A DNA stretch of 34,430 bases, taken from positions 1 through 34,430 of the forward strand of contig NZ_MUMH01000114.1 of assembly GCF_002155965.1 (NCBI RefSeq), in the 5' to 3' direction. Positions 2,869-24,176 of this stretch are shown piece by piece (the first letter of the stretch is position 1; each line of letters opens with the position of its first letter). The position numbers and the translations under genes are program-made. The stretch comes from Allokutzneria sp. NRRL B-24872 (GTDB lineage: Bacteria > Actinomycetota > Actinomycetes > Mycobacteriales > Pseudonocardiaceae). A model generated the notes under the pieces. That model worked only from the letters and a program-made list of their open reading frames with translations, did not search any database and had not been told where the DNA came from.

Positions 2869-4131
2869 TCAGAGGCCGAGCGCCTCGCGGACGGCGGCGC
2901 TCGACGGCGGCACGGTGGCGCGCGGGCCGATCTTGTCCTCCACCGCGTCGAGGGTCTTCAGGCCGTCGCCGGTGATCAGCAGGACGGTCTCGGCGTCCGG
3001 GTCGAGCTGGCCGGACTCGATGAGCTTCTTCGCCGTCGCGACGGTCACGCCGCCCGCGGTCTCGGCGAAGATGCCCTCGGTGCGGGCCAGCAGGCGGATC
3101 GCGTCGACGACCTCCTCGTCGCTGACGTGCTCCACCGAACCGCCGGTGCGGCGCACGGTGTCCAGCACGTAGGGACCGTCGGCGGGAGCGCCGATCGCCA
3201 GCGAACGGGCGATCGTGTCCGGCTTCACCGGCTGGATCACGTCGTGGCCCGCCTGGAACGCGGTGGCCACGGGGGAGCAGCCGGTGGCCTGGGCGCCGAA
3301 GACCCGGTACGGGGTCGGCTCCACCAGGTCCAGCTCGCCCAGCTCGCGGAAGGCCTTGTCCACCTTGGTCAGCTGCGAGCCCGAGGCGACCGGGACGACG
3401 ATCTGCTGCGGCAGGCGCCAGCCGAGCTGCTCGGCGACCTCGTAGCCGAGGGTCTTGGAGCCCTCCGCGTAGTACGGGCGGACGTTGACGTTGACGAACG
3501 CCCAGTCCTCGTGGTCGGCGGCCAGCTCGGTGGCCAGCCGGTTCACGTCGTCGTAGTTGCCGTCGACGGCGATCAGCGCGCCGTCGTACACGGCGGTGGT
3601 GAGCACCTTCGCGCGTTCGAGAGAGGAGGGGATCAGCACGACCGACTCCCAGCCCGCCCGCGCCGCCGCCGCGGCGACGGCGTTGGCCAGGTTGCCGGTG
3701 GAGGGGCAGGCCAGCACGGTGAACCCGAGCTGGCGCGCGGCGGCGAGCGCCACCGCGACCACGCGGTCCTTGAACGAGTGCGTGGGGTTGCCGGTGTCGT
3801 CCTTCACCCACAGCTTGCGCACGCCGAGCGCGGCGGCCAGGCGGTCGGCCTTGACCAGCCGGGTCAGCCCCGGGTCGGTGTTGGGGTGCTCCTGGACGTC
3901 CGAGGGCACCGGAAGGAGGTTGCGGTAGCGCCAGATGGAGCGGGGCCCCGCCTCGATCTCCGCGCGGGTGATCTTGCCGAAGTCGTAGCCGACCTCAAGG
4001 GGGCCGAAACACTCCGAACACGCGAACTCCGCGGCGAGCGGTACCTCGTTGCCACATTCGCGGCACACCAGGGCGCGGGCCGGGCCGAGGTCGAACTGGT
4101 GGGCGCTGCGGCGCGCCTCGATGGTCGTCAT
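2869..4131 (-). CDS. threonine synthase family PLP enzyme under a SAM riboswitch (ThrC, or MetM-type homocysteine synthase)
   Basis: A 420-residue fold-type II PLP enzyme of the threonine synthase family. The pyridoxal lysine is in THSFKDR (Lys121). An N-terminal C-x2-C...C-x2-C motif (Cys23, 26, 38, 41) resembles a zinc knuckle found in longer ThrC homologues. The ATG at 4131 has GGAG about ten bases upstream; the alternative ATG at 4147-4149 lies inside the riboswitch P1 stem and has no Shine-Dalgarno, so it is rejected. The gene stands alone, with no hom or thrB nearby. An S-box riboswitch directly precedes it (4145-4273), which is unexpected for threonine synthesis. A ThrC-like enzyme reported in Streptomyces (MetM) makes homocysteine from O-phosphohomoserine with a sulfur-carrier protein, and SAM control would fit that role. 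No carrier gene is adjacent. The family is certain; the reaction is not, so no symbol is given. Confidence 0.9.
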   Translation of the reverse strand: MTTIEARRSAHQFDLGPARALVCRECGNEVPLAAEFACSECFGPLEVGYDFGKITRAEIEAGPRSIWRYRNLLPVPSDVQEHPNTDPGLTRLVKADRLAAALGVRKLWVKDDTGNPTHSFKDRVVAVALAAARQLGFTVLACPSTGNLANAVAAAAARAGWESVVLIPSSLERAKVLTTAVYDGALIAVDGNYDDVNRLATELAADHEDWAFVNVNVRPYYAEGSKTLGYEVAEQLGWRLPQQIVVPVASGSQLTKVDKAFRELGELDLVEPTPYRVFGAQATGCSPVATAFQAGHDVIQPVKPDTIARSLAIGAPADGPYVLDTVRRTGGSVEHVSDEEVVDAIRLLARTEGIFAETAGGVTVATAKKLIESGQLDPDAETVLLITGDGLKTLDAVEDKIGPRATVPPSSAAVREALGL

Positions 4132-4144
4132 CGCGAGGTCTCTC

Positions 4145-4273
4145 CTCATCTTTCCCGCTCGTGCGGGCCGGATTTGGCACCGTGATCGCCGTTGGCCTCG
4201 CGGAGAGTCCGCTTGCCGTCAGCGTCGGTTGCCGGGGTGTCGTAGGGCCGATCCCTCTACCCCTCTGGATGAG
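4145..4273 (-). ncRNA. S-box (SAM-I/SAM-IV type) riboswitch upstream of the threonine-synthase-like gene
   Basis: Read on the minus strand, the leader carries the S-box core in order: P1 5' strand CTCATC (4273-4268), CAGAGGGGTAGAGGGAT, GGCCC, CCCCGGCAACC, then GGTGCCAAATCC, a small CCCGC/GCGGG hairpin, and AAAGATGAG, whose GATGAG (4150-4145) closes P1. These match conserved SAM-I family segments; the extra hairpin after AATCC favours SAM-I over SAM-IV, but I cannot exclude either by eye. The 3' strand of P1 overlaps the AGGAG Shine-Dalgarno (4146-4142) of the downstream gene, so ligand-stabilised P1 could block ribosome binding directly. No separate intrinsic terminator is visible between P1 and the start codon, so translational control is inferred. 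Confidence 0.92.
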
Positions 4274-4414
4274 CTCTTCAGTTGTGTGGCGGCGCGCATC
4301 GGCGGCCGTCCGGTGGTCACGCTACGGCACCGTCCCACGGGAGAGCCACCGTTGCCCATGATGCGGGACGTGCGCGGCGGCCGTGCCGTCCGACCCTCGT
4401 GCGAGGATGGCGCG

Positions 4415-5395
4415 GTGAGTGCTCCCGCCGCAGCGCCAGCCCCGTTGCACCTGGTCATCGGAGAGGAAGAGCTCCTCGTCGAGCGGTCCGTGCGGGCCGC
4501 CCTCGACGCCGCGAGGCAGGCCGATCCGGAGGCCGAGCTGCGCCGGGTCCGGGTGACCGATCTCACCCCTCCCGAGCTAGCCGAGCTGCTCAGCCCCTCG
4601 CTGTTCGCGGAGGGCAGGGTGATCGTGCTCGAGGCGGCCCAGGACGCGGGCAAGGAGATCGCCGAGGCGGTGCTCTCCTACATCCGCGACCCCGCCGAGG
4701 GCGTGACCCTGGTCCTCACGCACACCGGGGGCGGGCGCGGCAAGCTCGCCAAGGAGCTGCCCGCAGCGCTGCGCAAGGCGGGGGCGGCGGTCGCGGAGTG
4801 CGCCAAGCTGACCAAGGCCAGCGACCGGGAATCCTTTGTGCGCAACGAGGTTCGGCGCGCGGGCGGCAAGATCGACGGGCCAGGGCTCGCGGCGCTGATG
4901 GAGACGGTCGGCAACGACCTGCGTGAGTTGGCGGCGGCGGCATCGCAGCTCGTCGCGGACACCGGCGGCAAGGTCGACGAGCAGGCGGTGCGCCGCTACC
5001 ACCGCGGCCGCGCGGAGGTGGCCGGTTTCGCCGTGGCGGAGAAGGCCGTCACCGGTGACCGCACCGCCGCGCTGGAATCGTTGCGCTGGGCGTTGCAGCT
5101 CGGGGTTCCGCACGTGCTGCTGGCCGACGCGCTGGCCGACGCGGTGCGCACGATCGCCAGGGTTGCCGGGGTGGGGCGGGCGGACCCGTTCCAGCTCGCG
5201 GGTCAGCTCGGCATGCCGCCGTGGAAGGTCAAGAAGGCGCTCGGCCAGGCGCAGGGCTGGTCCCCTGAGGGCCTCGCCGAGGCGATGGGCTTGGTCGCCA
5301 CGCTCAACGCGGAGGTGAAGGGCATGGCCGCCAGCGCCGACTACGCGGTGGAGCGCGCCGTGCTCAAGGTGGCCGCCGCGCGCAACCGGCGCTGA
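4415..5395 (+). CDS. holA: DNA polymerase III subunit delta
   Basis: A 326-residue clamp-loader delta subunit, which opens the beta sliding clamp during replication. The protein opens with LHLVIGEEELLVERSVRAAL, the typical start of the HolA N-terminal AAA-like domain, and ends with the helical C-terminal domain carrying GMPPWKVKKALGQAQGW, well conserved in actinobacterial HolA. Length matches the family (about 320-340). The GTG at 4415 is chosen because GAGG lies about eight bases upstream and the homologous region begins there; the frame is open far upstream but without resemblance to the family. holA usually follows comEC directly in actinobacteria; here the riboswitch-controlled minus-strand gene is inserted between them. 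Confidence 0.93.
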   Translation: MSAPAAAPAPLHLVIGEEELLVERSVRAALDAARQADPEAELRRVRVTDLTPPELAELLSPSLFAEGRVIVLEAAQDAGKEIAEAVLSYIRDPAEGVTLVLTHTGGGRGKLAKELPAALRKAGAAVAECAKLTKASDRESFVRNEVRRAGGKIDGPGLAALMETVGNDLRELAAAASQLVADTGGKVDEQAVRRYHRGRAEVAGFAVAEKAVTGDRTAALESLRWALQLGVPHVLLADALADAVRTIARVAGVGRADPFQLAGQLGMPPWKVKKALGQAQGWSPEGLAEAMGLVATLNAEVKGMAASADYAVERAVLKVAAARNRR

Positions 5396-18093: not shown

Positions 18094-18777
18094 GGTGCCT
18101 CCGGGGGAGCGGGTCGCACGATCTGGTGACGTGCGGTCCGACCAGTCTCCTCCCGGCCGTTTTTGTCAGACCCCCCGGTCATGGTGTGGGGCGCGCCGAG
18201 AGTGACGGCGGCGGCCGGCCCCCGACAGTCCGGTCGCCGCCGTCGTAGTGGATGAAGGCCGTCCCCGGACCTCCGCGCGCGTGCATGCAAACGCTGCGAA
18301 CAGGGTGGAGGGTGTGCCTTGCGTGGGAGACGGCGAGGAGCCGCGTTGGGTTGCCCCGGCGCCCGTGATTGCCCAAACGATCACGCGAACGGCCTAGTGG
18401 GAAGGGGGATCGCGCTGATTCGGGCGGGTCCGGGGAGCGGCTTCGCTGAACCGGGTGGACCGTCATGATTTCGGGTGATTTCCCGCCAGTCCACCTGCGT
18501 GAATTGGCACCATTTCGCCCAGCCGGAAAGGCGAGAAGTATTCGAAGATCGCCCGCGTGCTGCGCCGGGAAACGCCGACGTCGCAGCGTGGGGGCGGATT
18601 CACCGCATTGTGCGGCGAATCGACTGTTGATGATCTTGGAGATGCACCCGATAGGGTAGGCCGACCGGTGATCACCCGAAAACACGCGGTCTCACTGGCG
18701 ATCCACTGCCTCCGTGCGCTTTGCGGTGCTGTTGTCTGAGTCGTTGTCCTGAGTCGCTGTCGACCCGTGAGGATCTG
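18094..18777. other. 684-base gene-free region upstream of the conservon
   Basis: No open frame here has normal codon bias or resembles a known protein. It holds the divergent promoters of the HD gene and the conservon. Visible structure: GGTGGAC (18454-18460) complementary to GTCCACC (18489-18495), and a 25-base imperfect inverted repeat with GATTCACCGCA pairing TGCGGCGAATC at 18597-18621. A TTGATGATCTTGGAG...GATAGGGT stretch near 18626-18657 could be a promoter. A 13-base tandem repeat lies at 18736-18761. A small RNA cannot be excluded. Confidence 0.45.
18736..18761 (+). repeat. 13-base tandem repeat before the conservon
   Basis: CTGAGTCGTTGTC (18736-18748) is repeated as CTGAGTCGCTGTC (18749-18761), 12 of 13 identical, ending 16 bases before the cvnA-like ATG. 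It may be a regulator binding site in the leader or chance. Confidence 0.6.
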
Positions 18778-20067
18778 ATGGGGCAAGAAGTACTTGCGGC
18801 CGCGTTATGGGTCGCGGTGGCGTTCGGGCTCGTCGTGGTCGTCCTGCTGGCCCGCCAGCACGGCATCGCCAACCGCTTGCGCGTGCGCAACACCGAGCTG
18901 GAGGCCACGGCCCGCGCCCGGGTCGAGGAGGAGGCGCACCTCGTCTCCACCCGCCTGCCCGCGCTGGCGGCGACGGCCGACCACCGGCAGGAGGAGGTGC
19001 CCGGCCCGCTGCACCCCGCGGTCGCCGGAGCGCACCAGGTGGTGCTGGAGCTGTTCGCCGAGTCCATGCGCCAGGCCAAGGACCGGGGCGAGCAGTCGGC
19101 GCGCACCGCCGTCAAGGCGATGATGCGCGCGGTGCAGAGCCTCGCCAACGAGCAGCAGCTGGCGATCTCGGCGATGCAGGAGGAGCACGACAACCCCACC
19201 GTGCTCGGCGGCCTGATGACCATCGACCACATGAACTCCCAGCTCGGTCGGCGCGCGCAGGCCACGGCCGTGCTCTGCGGGTCGTGGCCGGGCCAGCAGC
19301 GCTCCGCCTCCTCGATCAGCGACGTGGTCCGCGGCGCCACCTCGCGCATCCGCGACTACCTCCGCGTCCAGGTCTCCACCCAGGTCGACGTCGCCGTGGT
19401 CAGCCGCGCGGTCGAGCCGGTCGTGCTCACCGTCGCCGAACTGCTGGACAACGGCGCGCGGCACTCGCCGCCGATCGCCTCGGTGCAGGTCAACTTCCAG
19501 CAGGCGCACAACGGCCTGGCGATCGTCATCGACGACGCGGGCGTCGGCATGAACAACGACGAGCTGCGGCACGCCGCCGAGCAGCTCTCCGGCCGCGCGG
19601 GCCAGGACATCAACCGCCTCGGCGACCCGCCCCAGGTCGGCTTCGCGGTGATCGGCCTGCTCGCCGCGCGCTACGGCTTCTCCGTCTCCGTCGACACCCG
19701 TTCGCCCTACGGCGGCGTGCGCGCGGTGATCTTCCTGCCGACCGCGCTGCTGACCAGGGTTCCGCTGCCGGAGCCCGTGGTGAAGCGCCCCGAGGCGCGC
19801 GAGACCCACGCCACCGTGCTGCCGCACCCCAGCTCGCCCCGCCACGGCCGCCAGGAGGAGCCCGGCACCGAGCAGGAGCAGGAGCGCACCGCTGGCGGGC
19901 TGCCCAAGCGCCGCCGCCGCGAGGCCCCGCCCGAGGTCGCGGCCCAGACAACACCGTTGCCGATCCGCCCGGCGTCCAGGACCACGTCCGGACTGGGAGC
20001 CTGGCAGCGCGGTACCCGTTCCGGGCGTGCCGTGCCGCCCGTCGCTGAGGGGAGCCCCCAGGAATGA
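18778..20067 (+). CDS. conservon sensor histidine-kinase-like ATPase (CvnA type)
   Basis: A 429-residue membrane-anchored kinase-like protein, first gene of a conservon. A single N-terminal membrane helix (about residues 5-25, LAAALWVAVAFGLVVVVLLA) is followed by a coiled region, a DHp-like segment (MTIDHMNSQLGRRAQATAVL) and an HATPase domain with N-box VAELLDNGARHSPP and G1-box IDDAGVGMN. The tail from about residue 345 is charged and proline-rich. In Streptomyces, CvnA forms a membrane complex with CvnB, CvnC and the GTPase CvnD, likened to a GPCR-like switch affecting differentiation and antibiotic production. ATG 18778 has GAGGA five bases upstream; the in-frame start at 18721 is not supported. 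It overlaps the next gene by four bases (ATGA). Confidence 0.92.
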   Translation: MGQEVLAAALWVAVAFGLVVVVLLARQHGIANRLRVRNTELEATARARVEEEAHLVSTRLPALAATADHRQEEVPGPLHPAVAGAHQVVLELFAESMRQAKDRGEQSARTAVKAMMRAVQSLANEQQLAISAMQEEHDNPTVLGGLMTIDHMNSQLGRRAQATAVLCGSWPGQQRSASSISDVVRGATSRIRDYLRVQVSTQVDVAVVSRAVEPVVLTVAELLDNGARHSPPIASVQVNFQQAHNGLAIVIDDAGVGMNNDELRHAAEQLSGRAGQDINRLGDPPQVGFAVIGLLAARYGFSVSVDTRSPYGGVRAVIFLPTALLTRVPLPEPVVKRPEARETHATVLPHPSSPRHGRQEEPGTEQEQERTAGGLPKRRRREAPPEVAAQTTPLPIRPASRTTSGLGAWQRGTRSGRAVPPVAEGSPQE

Positions 20068-20477
20068 CCGAACCGACGAACAACAAGCTGGGCTGGATGC
20101 TCGACAACGCGTTGCAGATGCCGGAGACACTGCACGCGATCCTGCTCTCCGCCGACGGGCTGCTGATGGCCCACTCGCAGACGATCAGCAGGGACGACGC
20201 CGACCGGCACGCCGCGGCCATGTCGGGCCTGCAGGCGCTGGCCCGCAGCACCGCGGAGTTCTGCGGCGGCGAGATCAGCGGCTGGCAGCAGACGGTCAAC
20301 GAGTTCGCGGGCGGCTACGTCTTCCTCGTCGCGGCGGGACCGGGCGCCTACCTTGCGGTCTCGGCCACCGACCGGGTCGACATGGAGGCCGTGTCCTTCC
20401 GGTTGCAGGAGCTGGTGCAGCGGCTCGGCAAGGAGCTGACAAGCCCTCCGCGACAGGGCATCGGTAGCCGGGCATGA
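20064..20477 (+). CDS. roadblock/LC7 domain protein (CvnB type)
   Basis: A 137-residue roadblock/LC7 protein, small dimeric modules that often regulate partner GTPases. The core runs from LGWMLDNALQMPETLHAILL through SADGLLMAHS to YVFLVAAGPGAYLAV, the standard Cvn version. It overlaps the ATPase gene (ATGA at 20064-20067) and the DUF742 gene (ATGA at 20474-20477), so expression is coupled. It probably acts as scaffold or GTPase-activating partner of the CvnD-like protein. Confidence 0.92.
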   Translation: MTEPTNNKLGWMLDNALQMPETLHAILLSADGLLMAHSQTISRDDADRHAAAMSGLQALARSTAEFCGGEISGWQQTVNEFAGGYVFLVAAGPGAYLAVSATDRVDMEAVSFRLQELVQRLGKELTSPPRQGIGSRA

Positions 20478-20827
20478 CCCCGGACCGCCGGGAACGGGCG
20501 TTGGTGCGGCCGCACGTGGTGACCGGCGGCCGCGCTCACCCGACCCGCAACACCTTCGACCTGGTCACCCTGGTGTCGGTGGTCAAGGACCAGCTCGCCG
20601 GGCTGAGCCCGGAGAAGCGCCGCGCCATGCAGCTGTGCAGCGGCGGCGCGCTCTCGGTCGCCGAGGCCGCCGCGCACCTCGGTCTGCCGGTCAGCGTCAC
20701 CAAGGTGCTGCTGTCCGACCTCGTCGACAGCGGGCACCTCGCCGTCACCTCCGAGTCCCCGGCGCGCGGCGGTCCCGACCTCAAGCTGCTCAAGGATGTG
20801 CTCGATGGCCTTCGCGCGCTCGTCTGA
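20474..20827 (+). CDS. DUF742 protein (CvnC type)
   Basis: A 117-residue DUF742 protein, the third constant member of conservons. It begins with RALVRPHVVTGGRAHPTRNT and contains a winged-helix-like core (LSVAEAAAHLGLPVSVTKVL, then LSDLVDSGHLAV), the usual DUF742 signature. Its function is unknown; it interacts with CvnA and CvnB in the best studied case. Its last 23 bases overlap the start of the GTPase gene. Confidence 0.92.
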   Translation: MTPDRRERALVRPHVVTGGRAHPTRNTFDLVTLVSVVKDQLAGLSPEKRRAMQLCSGGALSVAEAAAHLGLPVSVTKVLLSDLVDSGHLAVTSESPARGGPDLKLLKDVLDGLRALV

Positions 20828-21419
20828 GGGCAGCTCGTCCGGCGGGATCTACGTCCGCAACACCGTGCGCACCTCGGTGAAGCTGCTCGTCGTCGGGCAC
20901 TTCGCGGTCGGCAAGACCACCTTCGTCGGCACCCTCTCCGAGATCCGCCCGCTGCGGACCGAGGAGACGATGACGCAGGCGGGCGAGCACGTCGACGACC
21001 TCACCGGCGCCAGGGGCAAGAGCACCACGACCGTGGCCATGGACTTCGGCAGGCTCACGCTGAACGACCAGCTGGTGCTCTACCTGTTCGGCGCGCCCGG
21101 CCAGCACCGCTTCAAGCAGCTGTGGAAGGACATCGCCACCGGGGCCCTCGGCGCGCTGGTGCTGGCCGACACCCGCAGGCTCGACGCCTCCTTCGACATC
21201 ATGGGCCTGCTGGAGGAGCTGGGGCTGCCCTACGCGGTCGCGGTCAACGACTTCGACGACGCGCCGAAGTTTCCGGAGCACGAGCTGCGCGAGGCGCTCG
21301 ACCTGCTCCCGGAGACCCCGCTCGTCACCTGCGACGCCCGCGACCGGGTGTCGTCGACCCACGCACTGATCGCGCTCGTGGAACACCTCCTCCGTCGTCC
21401 GGTACGGGAGTACGCGTGA
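20805..21419 (+). CDS. conservon small GTPase (CvnD type)
   Basis: A 204-residue Ras-like/ATP-GTP-binding protein. The P-loop is VVGHFAVGKTT (Lys37), switch II has GAPGQHRF (in place of DxxGQ) and the base-recognition motif is NDFD rather than NKxD, as seen in CvnD/MglA-like proteins. ATG 20805 is preferred to ATG 20796 because AAGG then lies eight bases upstream. The stop overlaps the GTG of the first P450 (GTGA at 21416-21419), placing the P450s in the same operon. In Streptomyces the GTPase is the output of the complex. Confidence 0.92.
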   Translation: MAFARSSEGSSSGGIYVRNTVRTSVKLLVVGHFAVGKTTFVGTLSEIRPLRTEETMTQAGEHVDDLTGARGKSTTTVAMDFGRLTLNDQLVLYLFGAPGQHRFKQLWKDIATGALGALVLADTRRLDASFDIMGLLEELGLPYAVAVNDFDDAPKFPEHELREALDLLPETPLVTCDARDRVSSTHALIALVEHLLRRPVREYA

Positions 21420-22765
21420 ACTCAGCACCCGCAGGCAACGACCTCGGCACGGGCGGCTGCCCCGTCACCGGGCACCGGACGCCGTTGTACGGACCGGAGT
21501 TCACCGCGAACCCGGCCCGCGTCTACGAGCGGTTGCGGGCCAACGGGCAGATCGCGCCGGTCGAGCTGGCGCCGGGGGTGCCCGCCACGCTGGTGGTCGG
21601 CTACGAGGCCGCACTGGAGGTGCTGCGCAATCCCGGCGACTTCCCCAGGGACGGCCGCCGCTGGGCGGAGACGGTGCCGGAGGACTGCCCGGTGCTGCCG
21701 GTGATGTCCTACCGGCCGAACTGCCTGATGACCGACGGCTCCGAGCACGCGCGCTTCCGCGGGGTGATCACCGACAGCGTGGCGCGGGTGGACCCGAACA
21801 AGGTCCGCGCGCACGTCGAGGCCACCGCGGACATGCTGATCAACCAGTTCGCCCAGCGCGGTTCGGCCGACCTGCTCACCGAGTACGCCGTGGCGCTGCC
21901 GCTGTGGGTGTTCACCTTCCTGCACGGCTGCCCCAAGGACGTCGGCGAGCGCATGGTCACCGGCATGCGCGACATCGTGGACATGCGCGATCCGGAGCAG
22001 GCGAACGAGCGGCTGACCACCGCGCTGCTGGAGCTGATCGCGCTCAAGCGGGCCGAACCCGCGCAGGACATGGCGTCCTGGATGATGGCGCACCCCGCCG
22101 CGCTGACCGACGAGGAGATCCTGCACCAGCTGTTCCTGATGCTGGGCGCGGGAACCGAGCCCGAGGCGAACCTGATCGCCAACGCGCTGCGGCTGCTGCT
22201 CTCCGACCACCGCTTCGCCGGGTACGTGGCCGGGGGCAGCATGCGGATCGAGGACGCGCTCGACGAGGTGCTGTGGACCGATCCGCCGGTGGCCAACCTC
22301 TCCGCCAGCTACCCGGAGCGCGAGGTGCTGCTGGCCGGGCGGCGGCTGCCCGCGCACCAGCCCGTGGTGATCAGCTACGCGGCGGCGAACACCGATCCGG
22401 AGTTCGGCGAGGAGCACCGCTCCGGCAACCGCGCGCACCTGGCGTGGGGCGCCGGTCCGCACGCGTGCCCGGTGCAGGGGCAGGCGCGGATGGTCGCCTC
22501 GATCGCGATCGAGAAGCTGCTGGACCGGTTGCCCGACCTGGCGCTCGGCGTCCCGGTCGAGGACCTGCCGTGGCGGGAGTCGCCGTTCCTGCGCGCGCTG
22601 TCCGGGCTGCCGGTCACCTTCACCGCTGTGCGCCCGGTCGAGACGGCGCCGGAGACCACCCAGCTGCCCGCCGTCCGCGCACCGGCACGGCACGCGGCCC
22701 CGCTGCCCACCGCGGTCGGGCAGCGCTGGCGGCACGCGATCATCCGGTGGTGGCGCGGGCAGTGA
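21416..22765 (+). CDS. conservon cytochrome P450 lacking ExxR (CYP157-like), copy 1
   Basis: A 449-residue P450-fold protein. The heme-thiolate Cys351 is in WGAGPHACPVQGQAR, so heme binding is expected. However the K-helix has EVLW (Glu284, Trp287) instead of ExxR, and the I-helix has GAGTEPEANLI (244-254), in which the usual threonine of AGxxT is Pro. Loss of ExxR is known for the conservon-associated CYP157 family of Streptomyces, which this matches. The catalytic domain ends near residue 405, followed by a linker and the tail WRHAIIRWWRGQ. It is translationally coupled to the GTPase gene. The role in the conservon is unknown: heme sensing, structural, or an atypical oxygenase. Confidence 0.9.
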   Translation: MNSAPAGNDLGTGGCPVTGHRTPLYGPEFTANPARVYERLRANGQIAPVELAPGVPATLVVGYEAALEVLRNPGDFPRDGRRWAETVPEDCPVLPVMSYRPNCLMTDGSEHARFRGVITDSVARVDPNKVRAHVEATADMLINQFAQRGSADLLTEYAVALPLWVFTFLHGCPKDVGERMVTGMRDIVDMRDPEQANERLTTALLELIALKRAEPAQDMASWMMAHPAALTDEEILHQLFLMLGAGTEPEANLIANALRLLLSDHRFAGYVAGGSMRIEDALDEVLWTDPPVANLSASYPEREVLLAGRRLPAHQPVVISYAAANTDPEFGEEHRSGNRAHLAWGAGPHACPVQGQARMVASIAIEKLLDRLPDLALGVPVEDLPWRESPFLRALSGLPVTFTAVRPVETAPETTQLPAVRAPARHAAPLPTAVGQRWRHAIIRWWRGQ

Positions 22766-22820
22766 CCCCGGGCCGAACAGCAGATCCCAGCAGGCATCGC
22801 AGGAGATCAGGAGTGCGCGC

Positions 22821-24176
22821 GTGAGCTCTCATTCCCCCGACGACACCCAGGACCGGCCGGGCTGCCCCTTCTCCGGGGACCGGGAGCCGCTGTACGGGCC
22901 GGAGTTCACCGCCGACCCGAACGCGGTCTACGAGCGCCTGCGCGAGCGGGGCCAGACCGCGCCGGTCGAGCTGGCGCCGGGGGTGAACGCCACGCTCGTG
23001 CTGGGCTACGACGCGGCACTGGAGGTGCTGCGCAGCCCCGGCACGTTCATCAGGGACGGCAGGCGGTGGCAGGCCACGATGCCGCCGGACTCCCCGGTGC
23101 TGCCGGTCATGGGCTACCGGCCGACCTGCCTGATGAGCGACGGCGACGCGCACGCGCGGCTGCGCCGGGTGATCAGCGACGCCTACGCCAGGGTCGACCC
23201 GAACATGATCAGGGCGCACGTCGAGGCCACCGCCGAGATGCTGATCGGCCGCTTCGCCGCCAAGGGCGAGGTGAACCTGCTCGCCGACTACGCGCTCGCG
23301 CTGCCGCTGTGGGTGTTCAACTACCTGCACGGCTGCTCGACCGAGCTGGGCGACCGGCTGGTCAGCGGGATGAGCCGGGTGGTGGACGTGGTCGAGGCCG
23401 AGCAGGCCAACGTCGACCTGACGCGCGCGCTGACCGAGCTGGTGGCGCTGAAGCGGCGCGAGCCCGGCCAGGACGTGACCTCGTGGATGATGCAGCACCC
23501 GGCGCGGCTGTCCGACGACGAGATGCTGCACCAGCTGTTCATCATCCTGGGCGCGGTGACCCAGCACCAGGCGAACCTGACCTCGAACGCGCTGCGGCTG
23601 CTGCTCTCCGACGACCGCTTCGCCGGTGACCTGGCCGGGGGCAGCATGCAGATCGAGGACGCCCTCGACGAGGTGCTGTGGACCGATCCGCCGATGACCA
23701 ACCTCTCGGTCACCTTCCCCACGCACCAGGTGAACGTGGGCGGGGCGATGCTGCCCGCCGACCAGCCGGTGCTGATCGGCTACGCCGCCGCGAACACCGA
23801 CCCGACCGTCCACGGTGGACACCGCGCGGGCAACCGGGCGCACCTGTCGTGGGGAGCCGGACCGCATGCCTGCCCCGTGCAGGGGACCGCGCGGCTGATC
23901 GCCTCGATCGCGATCGAGAAGCTGCTGGACCGGCTGCCCGACCTGCGCCTCGCGGTGCCCACGGAGGACCTGACGTGGCGACCGAGCCCGTTCTTCCGGT
24001 CGCTGACCGCGCTGCCGGTCAAATTCACGCCGGTGCGCGCTGACTCCGCGGGCACGGTCTCCGTCCCGTCGTGGGCTCGCCTGACGCCCAGTTCCGTGCC
24101 GCAGCCCCCGCCGCCGCAGGCTCCGCCGCCCCAGGGCTGGCGGCACGCGCTGGCCAGGTGGTGGCGCGGCCAGTAG
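22821..24176 (+). CDS. conservon cytochrome P450 lacking ExxR (CYP157-like), copy 2
   Basis: A 451-residue paralogue of the preceding P450, collinear without gaps through at least residue 360. Cys351 in WGAGPHACPVQGTAR is kept; the K-helix again reads EVLW (284-287). The I-helix is further changed to GAVTQHQANLT, losing both the glycine and the acid-threonine pair. After a proline-rich linker (PSSVPQPPPPQAPPPQ) it ends WRHALARWWRGQ, nearly the same tail as copy 1 although the linkers are unrelated. GTG start with GGAG upstream, 55 bases after copy 1. In Streptomyces, CYP157 genes often sit beside a normal CYP154; here both copies are ExxR-less. Confidence 0.9.
   Translation: MSSHSPDDTQDRPGCPFSGDREPLYGPEFTADPNAVYERLRERGQTAPVELAPGVNATLVLGYDAALEVLRSPGTFIRDGRRWQATMPPDSPVLPVMGYRPTCLMSDGDAHARLRRVISDAYARVDPNMIRAHVEATAEMLIGRFAAKGEVNLLADYALALPLWVFNYLHGCSTELGDRLVSGMSRVVDVVEAEQANVDLTRALTELVALKRREPGQDVTSWMMQHPARLSDDEMLHQLFIILGAVTQHQANLTSNALRLLLSDDRFAGDLAGGSMQIEDALDEVLWTDPPMTNLSVTFPTHQVNVGGAMLPADQPVLIGYAAANTDPTVHGGHRAGNRAHLSWGAGPHACPVQGTARLIASIAIEKLLDRLPDLRLAVPTEDLTWRPSPFFRSLTALPVKFTPVRADSAGTVSVPSWARLTPSSVPQPPPPQAPPPQGWRHALARWWRGQ

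Follow-up and report, generated by a model that had tools for sequence, protein, structure and literature searches.

Why should a SAM riboswitch stand in front of a gene that looks like a threonine synthase? This question is raised by the window analysed here (34,430 nucleotides, the entire contig C18 of the 8.19 Mb genome of Allokutzneria sp. NRRL B-24872), in which the initial annotation had described such an element on the minus strand, upstream of a thrC-like gene, and had regarded the combination as unusual. We consider it very probable that the gene is of the metM type and has a SAM-I riboswitch in its leader, that the enzyme makes homocysteine and that binding of SAM lowers translation of the gene.

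By its sequence model the element is a SAM-I riboswitch aptamer, which presumably binds SAM. The Rfam model RF00162 (SAM) matches the minus strand end to end (model positions 1-108) with 77 bits against a gathering score of 44.4, and it is the sole Rfam match in the whole window that reaches its gathering score; no other Rfam family is reported between 4000 and 4420 up to an E-value of 1. The S-box core runs in the order that had been described, with every position correct to the base: CTCATC as the 5′ strand of P1, GGCCC, CCCCGGCAACC, GGTGCCAAATCC and GATGAG as the 3′ strand of P1 (Table 1). We considered and rejected a SAM-IV element (RF00634) at this place. SAM-I alone is reported in 4000-4420, where overlapping matches within an Rfam clan are collapsed to the best one so that SAM-IV has no score of its own, and the only SAM-IV match of the genome at an E-value threshold of 0.001 lies on contig C125. 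An alignment of 82 matches (77 distinct rows), which includes the other SAM-I element of the genome (L118) and follows a model that was itself derived from 11 of the aligned leaders, holds standard pairs in 98.7% of its pair cells and two-sided changes at 13 of 26 pairs, a number that none of 500 shuffles attains. Taken by itself, the window leader has a better fold than 198 of its 200 shuffled versions (z -2.7). A putative pseudoknot between the loop and J3/4, for which we presumed the bases involved, is complementary in 81 of 81 leaders, yet invariant.

Table 1. Features of the riboswitch and its gene in the window
Feature	Position	Strand	Basis
SAM-I (S-box) riboswitch aptamer, full length	4143..4275	-	RF00162, 77 bits vs 44.4
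P1 5′ strand CUCAUC	4268..4273	-	sequence; found in 80/81 leaders
P1 3′ strand GAUGAG	4145..4150	-	sequence; helix 1 paired in 99.8% of alignment cells
Shine-Dalgarno GAGGAG	4142..4147	-	anti-Shine-Dalgarno duplex scan; three-base overlap with P1
CCUC element between Shine-Dalgarno and start, candidate switching element	4135..4138	-	conservation; function inferred
ThrC-family PLP enzyme, 420 aa, most likely MetM-type homocysteine synthase	2869..4131	-	TIGR00260, 271.6 bits; 69-75% identity to 30 metO-linked orthologues

The encoded protein passes the thrC model TIGR00260 (271.6 bits, cut-off 167.1) and scores below the cut-offs of all five further models listed for threonine synthase, reaching 277.7 against 303 for NF006050. 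These scores do not decide the identity of the gene, because the genome's own ThrC behaves likewise: it too stays under the five other cut-offs, and we discarded the NCBIfam threonine synthase models as a discriminator. This second thrC match above the cut-off (292.7 bits, contig C426) lies between one gene that passes the lysA model and another that passes the rho model, and hom-like and thrB-like frames were recognised by eye on either side of it, which gives the order lysA-hom-thrC-thrB-rho. The window protein is 34.6% identical to it over 356 columns. The window gene itself is an orthologue of threonine-synthase-like genes linked to metO and is not the thrC copy of that amino-acid cluster; downstream of it lies a gene in convergent orientation whose product has Competence and Lactamase_B domains. 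Among the best 80 of at least 570 orthologues, the closest relative is an Allokutzneria protein (99% identity), and the protein is 69-75% identical to the partners of 30 directly following sulfur-carrier genes. Of 81 aligned proteins, 58-60 retain, position by position, an N-terminal motif of four cysteines (window 4009-4065, codons C23 to C41), for which the others mostly have S, E, S and D.

Homocysteine is reportedly made from O-phosphohomoserine by a MetM/MetO route, which Hasebe and colleagues are said to have described in AEM in 2024, with MetO, in its thiocarboxylated form, presumably the sulfur donor of MetM. PMC12172450 treats MetM as a homocysteine synthase found in Streptomyces and states that a SAM riboswitch precedes metM of S. 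albulus and that metO belongs to the sulfur-carrier family. The window gene resembles that system in its threonine-synthase-like protein, in the SAM riboswitch upstream and in the carrier gene found directly downstream in many of its relatives, but metO adjoins neither the window gene nor any of 46 closer loci. Its enzyme most likely converts O-phosphohomoserine into homocysteine.

Should the gene instead encode a second threonine synthase, SAM control would balance how much O-phosphohomoserine goes to threonine and how much to methionine. The score for TIGR00260 agrees with this idea, and so does a homologue from a cyanobacterium, which shares 51.6% identity with S. albulus MetM, is encoded beside a metO-like gene and is described in PMC12172450 as primarily a threonine synthase on O-phosphohomoserine in vitro; in another place, that paper says that threonine is formed weakly in vitro. 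The five models missed do not separate the readings, but a further ThrC is encoded in the lysA-hom-thrC-thrB-rho cluster, a sulfur-carrier gene directly follows the orthologue at 30 of the 34 loci outside the window's relatives, and it would make little metabolic sense for high SAM to shut down threonine synthesis. We regard a second threonine synthase as improbable. Given the orthology to metO-linked genes and the separate ThrC, the claim that the riboswitch controls a threonine synthase is not upheld; the gene is probably of the metM type, and the "threonine synthase" reading probably wrong.

Nor is an S-box at this place exceptional. For Streptomyces lividans TK24, a table in PMC8079986, whose cis elements were checked with RNA-seq data, has RF00162 before SLIV_16930-SLIV_16925, which are labelled threonine biosynthesis; going by this description alone, we infer that the two genes are metM and metO. 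This entry and the work on MetM together explain what had seemed puzzling. The S. lividans element heads two genes, whereas no carrier gene follows the gene in the window.

The pairing of SAM-I with metM is general. An aptamer precedes the window gene and 80 of 80 orthologues, the best 80 of at least 570 confirmed ones and hence a set that favours close relatives; the search model for the leaders was built from 11 sequences, the window and 10 of these 80 loci. All 23 of those 80 leaders that were run against Rfam pass the gathering score. Across the family genomes, the best orthologue has a SAM-I element 11-104 bases before the matched start in 60 of 60 cases, covering 46 genera. Two weaker extra matches are without such an element: one in genome G072 (66% identity, 763 bases off) and one in G049 (38%), for which no SAM-I stands on the same contig and strand among the sites entered. 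The G072 locus (C260, L157:2287-4363) has SAM-I, then a gene for a GNAT-domain acetyltransferase and then the 66% identical MetM paralogue. Most of the 60 genomes have two SAM-I matches; G028 has six (L159 and other contigs), five of them above the cut-off.

How would the riboswitch act on this gene? Homocysteine, the precursor of methionine and SAM, would be made by the enzyme from O-phosphohomoserine. When SAM is plentiful, the aptamer would be occupied and P1 stabilised; a stable P1 would hold the start of the Shine-Dalgarno sequence in its 3′ strand and exclude the 30S subunit, so that less enzyme would be made. When SAM is low, P1 would open and the gene would be translated. The direction of the effect is assumed from metabolism, and the arrangement as a whole resembles ordinary feedback control and nothing unexpected. 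In favour of this explanation, the other SAM-I element of the genome precedes a MetN-like gene (best NCBIfam match MetN, under the cut-off) with a NIL domain.

The geometry of the leader fits such control. The ribosome site starts within the 3′ strand of P1: two bases of the core AGGAG (4146-4142), namely 4146-4145, belong to both, as the initial annotation had pointed out. The start ATG (4131-4129) follows ten bases past AGGAG; an in-frame ATG at 4149, inside P1, where the listed frame begins, is a less likely start. Leaving the L118 element aside, the distance from P1 to the start is 8-19 bases in 79 of 81 leaders; the other two, L048 and L079, have no in-frame start 8-20 bases past P1 and were dropped from the set of 79 used below. 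The best Shine-Dalgarno sequence overlaps P1 by at least one base in 60 of these 79 leaders (three bases in 26 leaders, two bases in 3, a single base in 31). The closeness of P1 and Shine-Dalgarno is thus conserved among the orthologues, whereas their overlap is not found everywhere: 19 of 79 leaders lack it, which counts against the mechanism set out above. A ribosome site within P1 of SAM-I is already on record in PMC2258182, and the direct-translation form treated there is like the window element in its full-length aptamer and in having its ribosome site in the 3′ part of P1.

Control could also be exerted by transcription termination or by Rho instead of translation. No terminator-like site was found in 4060-4560, and the 8-19 bases between P1 and the start in 79 of 81 leaders leave little room for one. 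A promoter scan, limited to the sigma-70 consensus, gave no match. SAM-I elements of Bacillota mostly act by termination, and this is what speaks for termination here; we hold control by termination or Rho to be improbable and keep to control of translation.

It had also been claimed that the overlap makes a separate expression platform unnecessary. This is unproven, since a conserved CCUC (4138-4135), placed after the Shine-Dalgarno sequence and ahead of the start codon, is complementary to GAGG (4147-4144) at the P1 end. A small expression platform at this site is possible. In the SAM-free state CCUC would pair with GAGG and exclude the full P1, and SAM would shift the balance; this can hold together with our preferred explanation. 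CCTC occurs in 66 of 79 linkers (mean 2.6 and maximum 8 in shuffles) and in 38 of the 49 distinct ones, and a helix of at least four pairs between linker and P1 end can form in 69 of 79 (mean 14.9 and maximum 24 in shuffles). In folds that lack P1, computed free of ligand, the P1 end pairs with the linker at a mean probability above 0.5 in 51 of 79 leaders. Against this stands that the loci are related and the counts are not independent, that CCTC also lies within 14 bases of the predicted start in 28 of 125 other predicted genes with a Shine-Dalgarno-like site, and that the window hairpin itself masks part of the Shine-Dalgarno sequence. Moreover, 50 of the 79 leaders pair the 5′ strand of P1 with the start region in their P1-free fold, and ligand and pseudoknot are outside the folding model. 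On balance, such a platform appears rather doubtful.

The same folding bears on the simpler assumption that an open P1 means an active gene. In a two-state comparison free of ligand and pseudoknot, the P1 state is lower in only 16 of 79 leaders and the median favours the absence of P1 by 1.6 kcal/mol; this and the pairing of the start region in 50 of 79 P1-free states argue against that assumption. The Shine-Dalgarno region is more open without P1 in 51 of 79 leaders (means 0.51 and 0.44, ligand-free folding). The minimum fold of the window leader pairs the 5′ strand of P1 with the start codon, but it models neither SAM nor pseudoknot and is not taken as proof. We also dismissed a P3 partner of CCUC, GCGAGG, which inspection by eye had shown for the window and a few relatives but which others lack. 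The CCUC element behind the Shine-Dalgarno sequence may be new: the aptamer of the direct-translation form is alike, but a conserved CCUC is not mentioned in the relevant part of PMC2258182.

Other elements of the genome were noted in passing. The second SAM-I element (C368, L118:3600-3300) lies upstream of a MetN-like ATPase gene, and the first ATG past it opens a frame of 37 residues, rich in arginine and containing three cysteines; this frame stops ahead of the start listed for metN and may be a leader peptide. The single SAM-IV element (C125, L111:1501-1615) lies beside a class-V aminotransferase gene of the cysteine-desulfurase type; in S. lividans, too, a SAM-IV element precedes a cysteine desulfurase gene, according to the cis-element table of PMC8079986. 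Elsewhere in the window (18721-24176), the translations point to genes for a kinase-like ATPase, a roadblock-like protein, a DUF742-like protein and a GTPase, followed by two tandem P450 genes. This stretch resembles a conservon cluster.

If the gene is metM, where is its sulfur carrier? Within the best 80 of at least 570 orthologues, a ThiS-like carrier gene starts no more than 100 bases past the gene end at 30 loci, and these carriers end in PAVAGG, three with one residue more. MetO-like proteins of L062, L072 and L081 end in GGC, so that the diglycine is not terminal. All 30 loci are among the 34 outside the window's relatives, the exceptions being L053, L075, L078 and L080. A MetO-like match is missing from 50 of the 80 loci, including all 46 closer relatives, within the downstream stretch examined, which was shorter than 3 kb for L004, L018, L026, L040, L078 and L080. 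These 46 loci (L003-L047 and L049) comprise two Actinopolyspora (Actinopolysporales), one Actinomycetes MAG (L028) and otherwise Pseudonocardiales, the placement in the latter order being our assumption.

CysM, CysO and Mec form the cysteine system of actinomycetes, in which CysM is the known partner of CysO. Sixteen genomes behind 16 of the 46 loci all have their best MetO-like carrier beside cysM and mec homologues, at 53-61% identity in 15 and 51% in Actinopolyspora. Eight genomes from the other group have, without exception, their best carrier adjoining metM; each has a second carrier of 50-58%, which lies beside cysM and mec homologues in all six examined of the eight, and two have a third. 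The window's own genome holds four ThiS-family matches, on C443 (beside a cysteine synthase gene), C438 (between thiamine-type genes), C40 and C447. On C443, genes for a cysteine synthase, a ThiS-family carrier and a JAB-domain protein stand side by side, which resembles the CysM-CysO-Mec system; the use of CysO by MetM, in contrast to that system, is hypothetical. The own CysO-like carrier (L114:4505-4783) ends in GGAR, with a diglycine that is not terminal, and the product of the neighbouring JAB-domain gene could trim this end. A second, weaker carrier, perhaps of the C40 type, was also considered as a stand-in for MetO and set aside, as matches of 34-45% were found in only 5 of the 16 relatives' genomes.

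CysO is the best candidate for the sulfur donor of MetM in the window's relatives. We go further with some reserve, giving it slightly less than an even chance: in Pseudonocardiaceae and their kin, MetM would have lost its private carrier and would share CysO with CysM, with SAM-I on metM alone setting the share of sulfur that goes to methionine. The missing MetO may be new. Borrowed carriers are cited for BexX of an Amycolatopsis in parts of PMC11323500 and PMC4784017; for MetM with CysO, no report was found in the open-licence literature.

Other routes to homocysteine have to be weighed as well. The window's own genome encodes PF01053 enzymes and a MetX-like protein of 413 bits, below the cut-off of 500 of the MetX model, a threshold that no control genome clears; since both are present, MetM is not the only possible route of this genome. 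At an E-value of 1e-80, MetX is seen in 33 of 60 family genomes and not in the other 27, all of which have MetM. At 1e-20 it is absent from 4 of 16 relatives' genomes and from 5 of 8 of the other group. MetA was found in one of the 24 genomes searched for it, a smaller set than the 60. Four of the 16 genomes without a linked carrier that were searched for both show neither MetX nor MetA, and in such relatives MetM could be the main route to homocysteine.

With these results an apparent oddity is removed: SAM-controlled "threonine synthase" genes of actinomycetes probably belong to methionine synthesis, and their label should be changed. At the same time a testable question on sulfur traffic is raised, as MetM of the window's relatives seems to work with no carrier gene linked to it. 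If CysO indeed takes this part, a single carrier would supply both cysteine and methionine synthesis.
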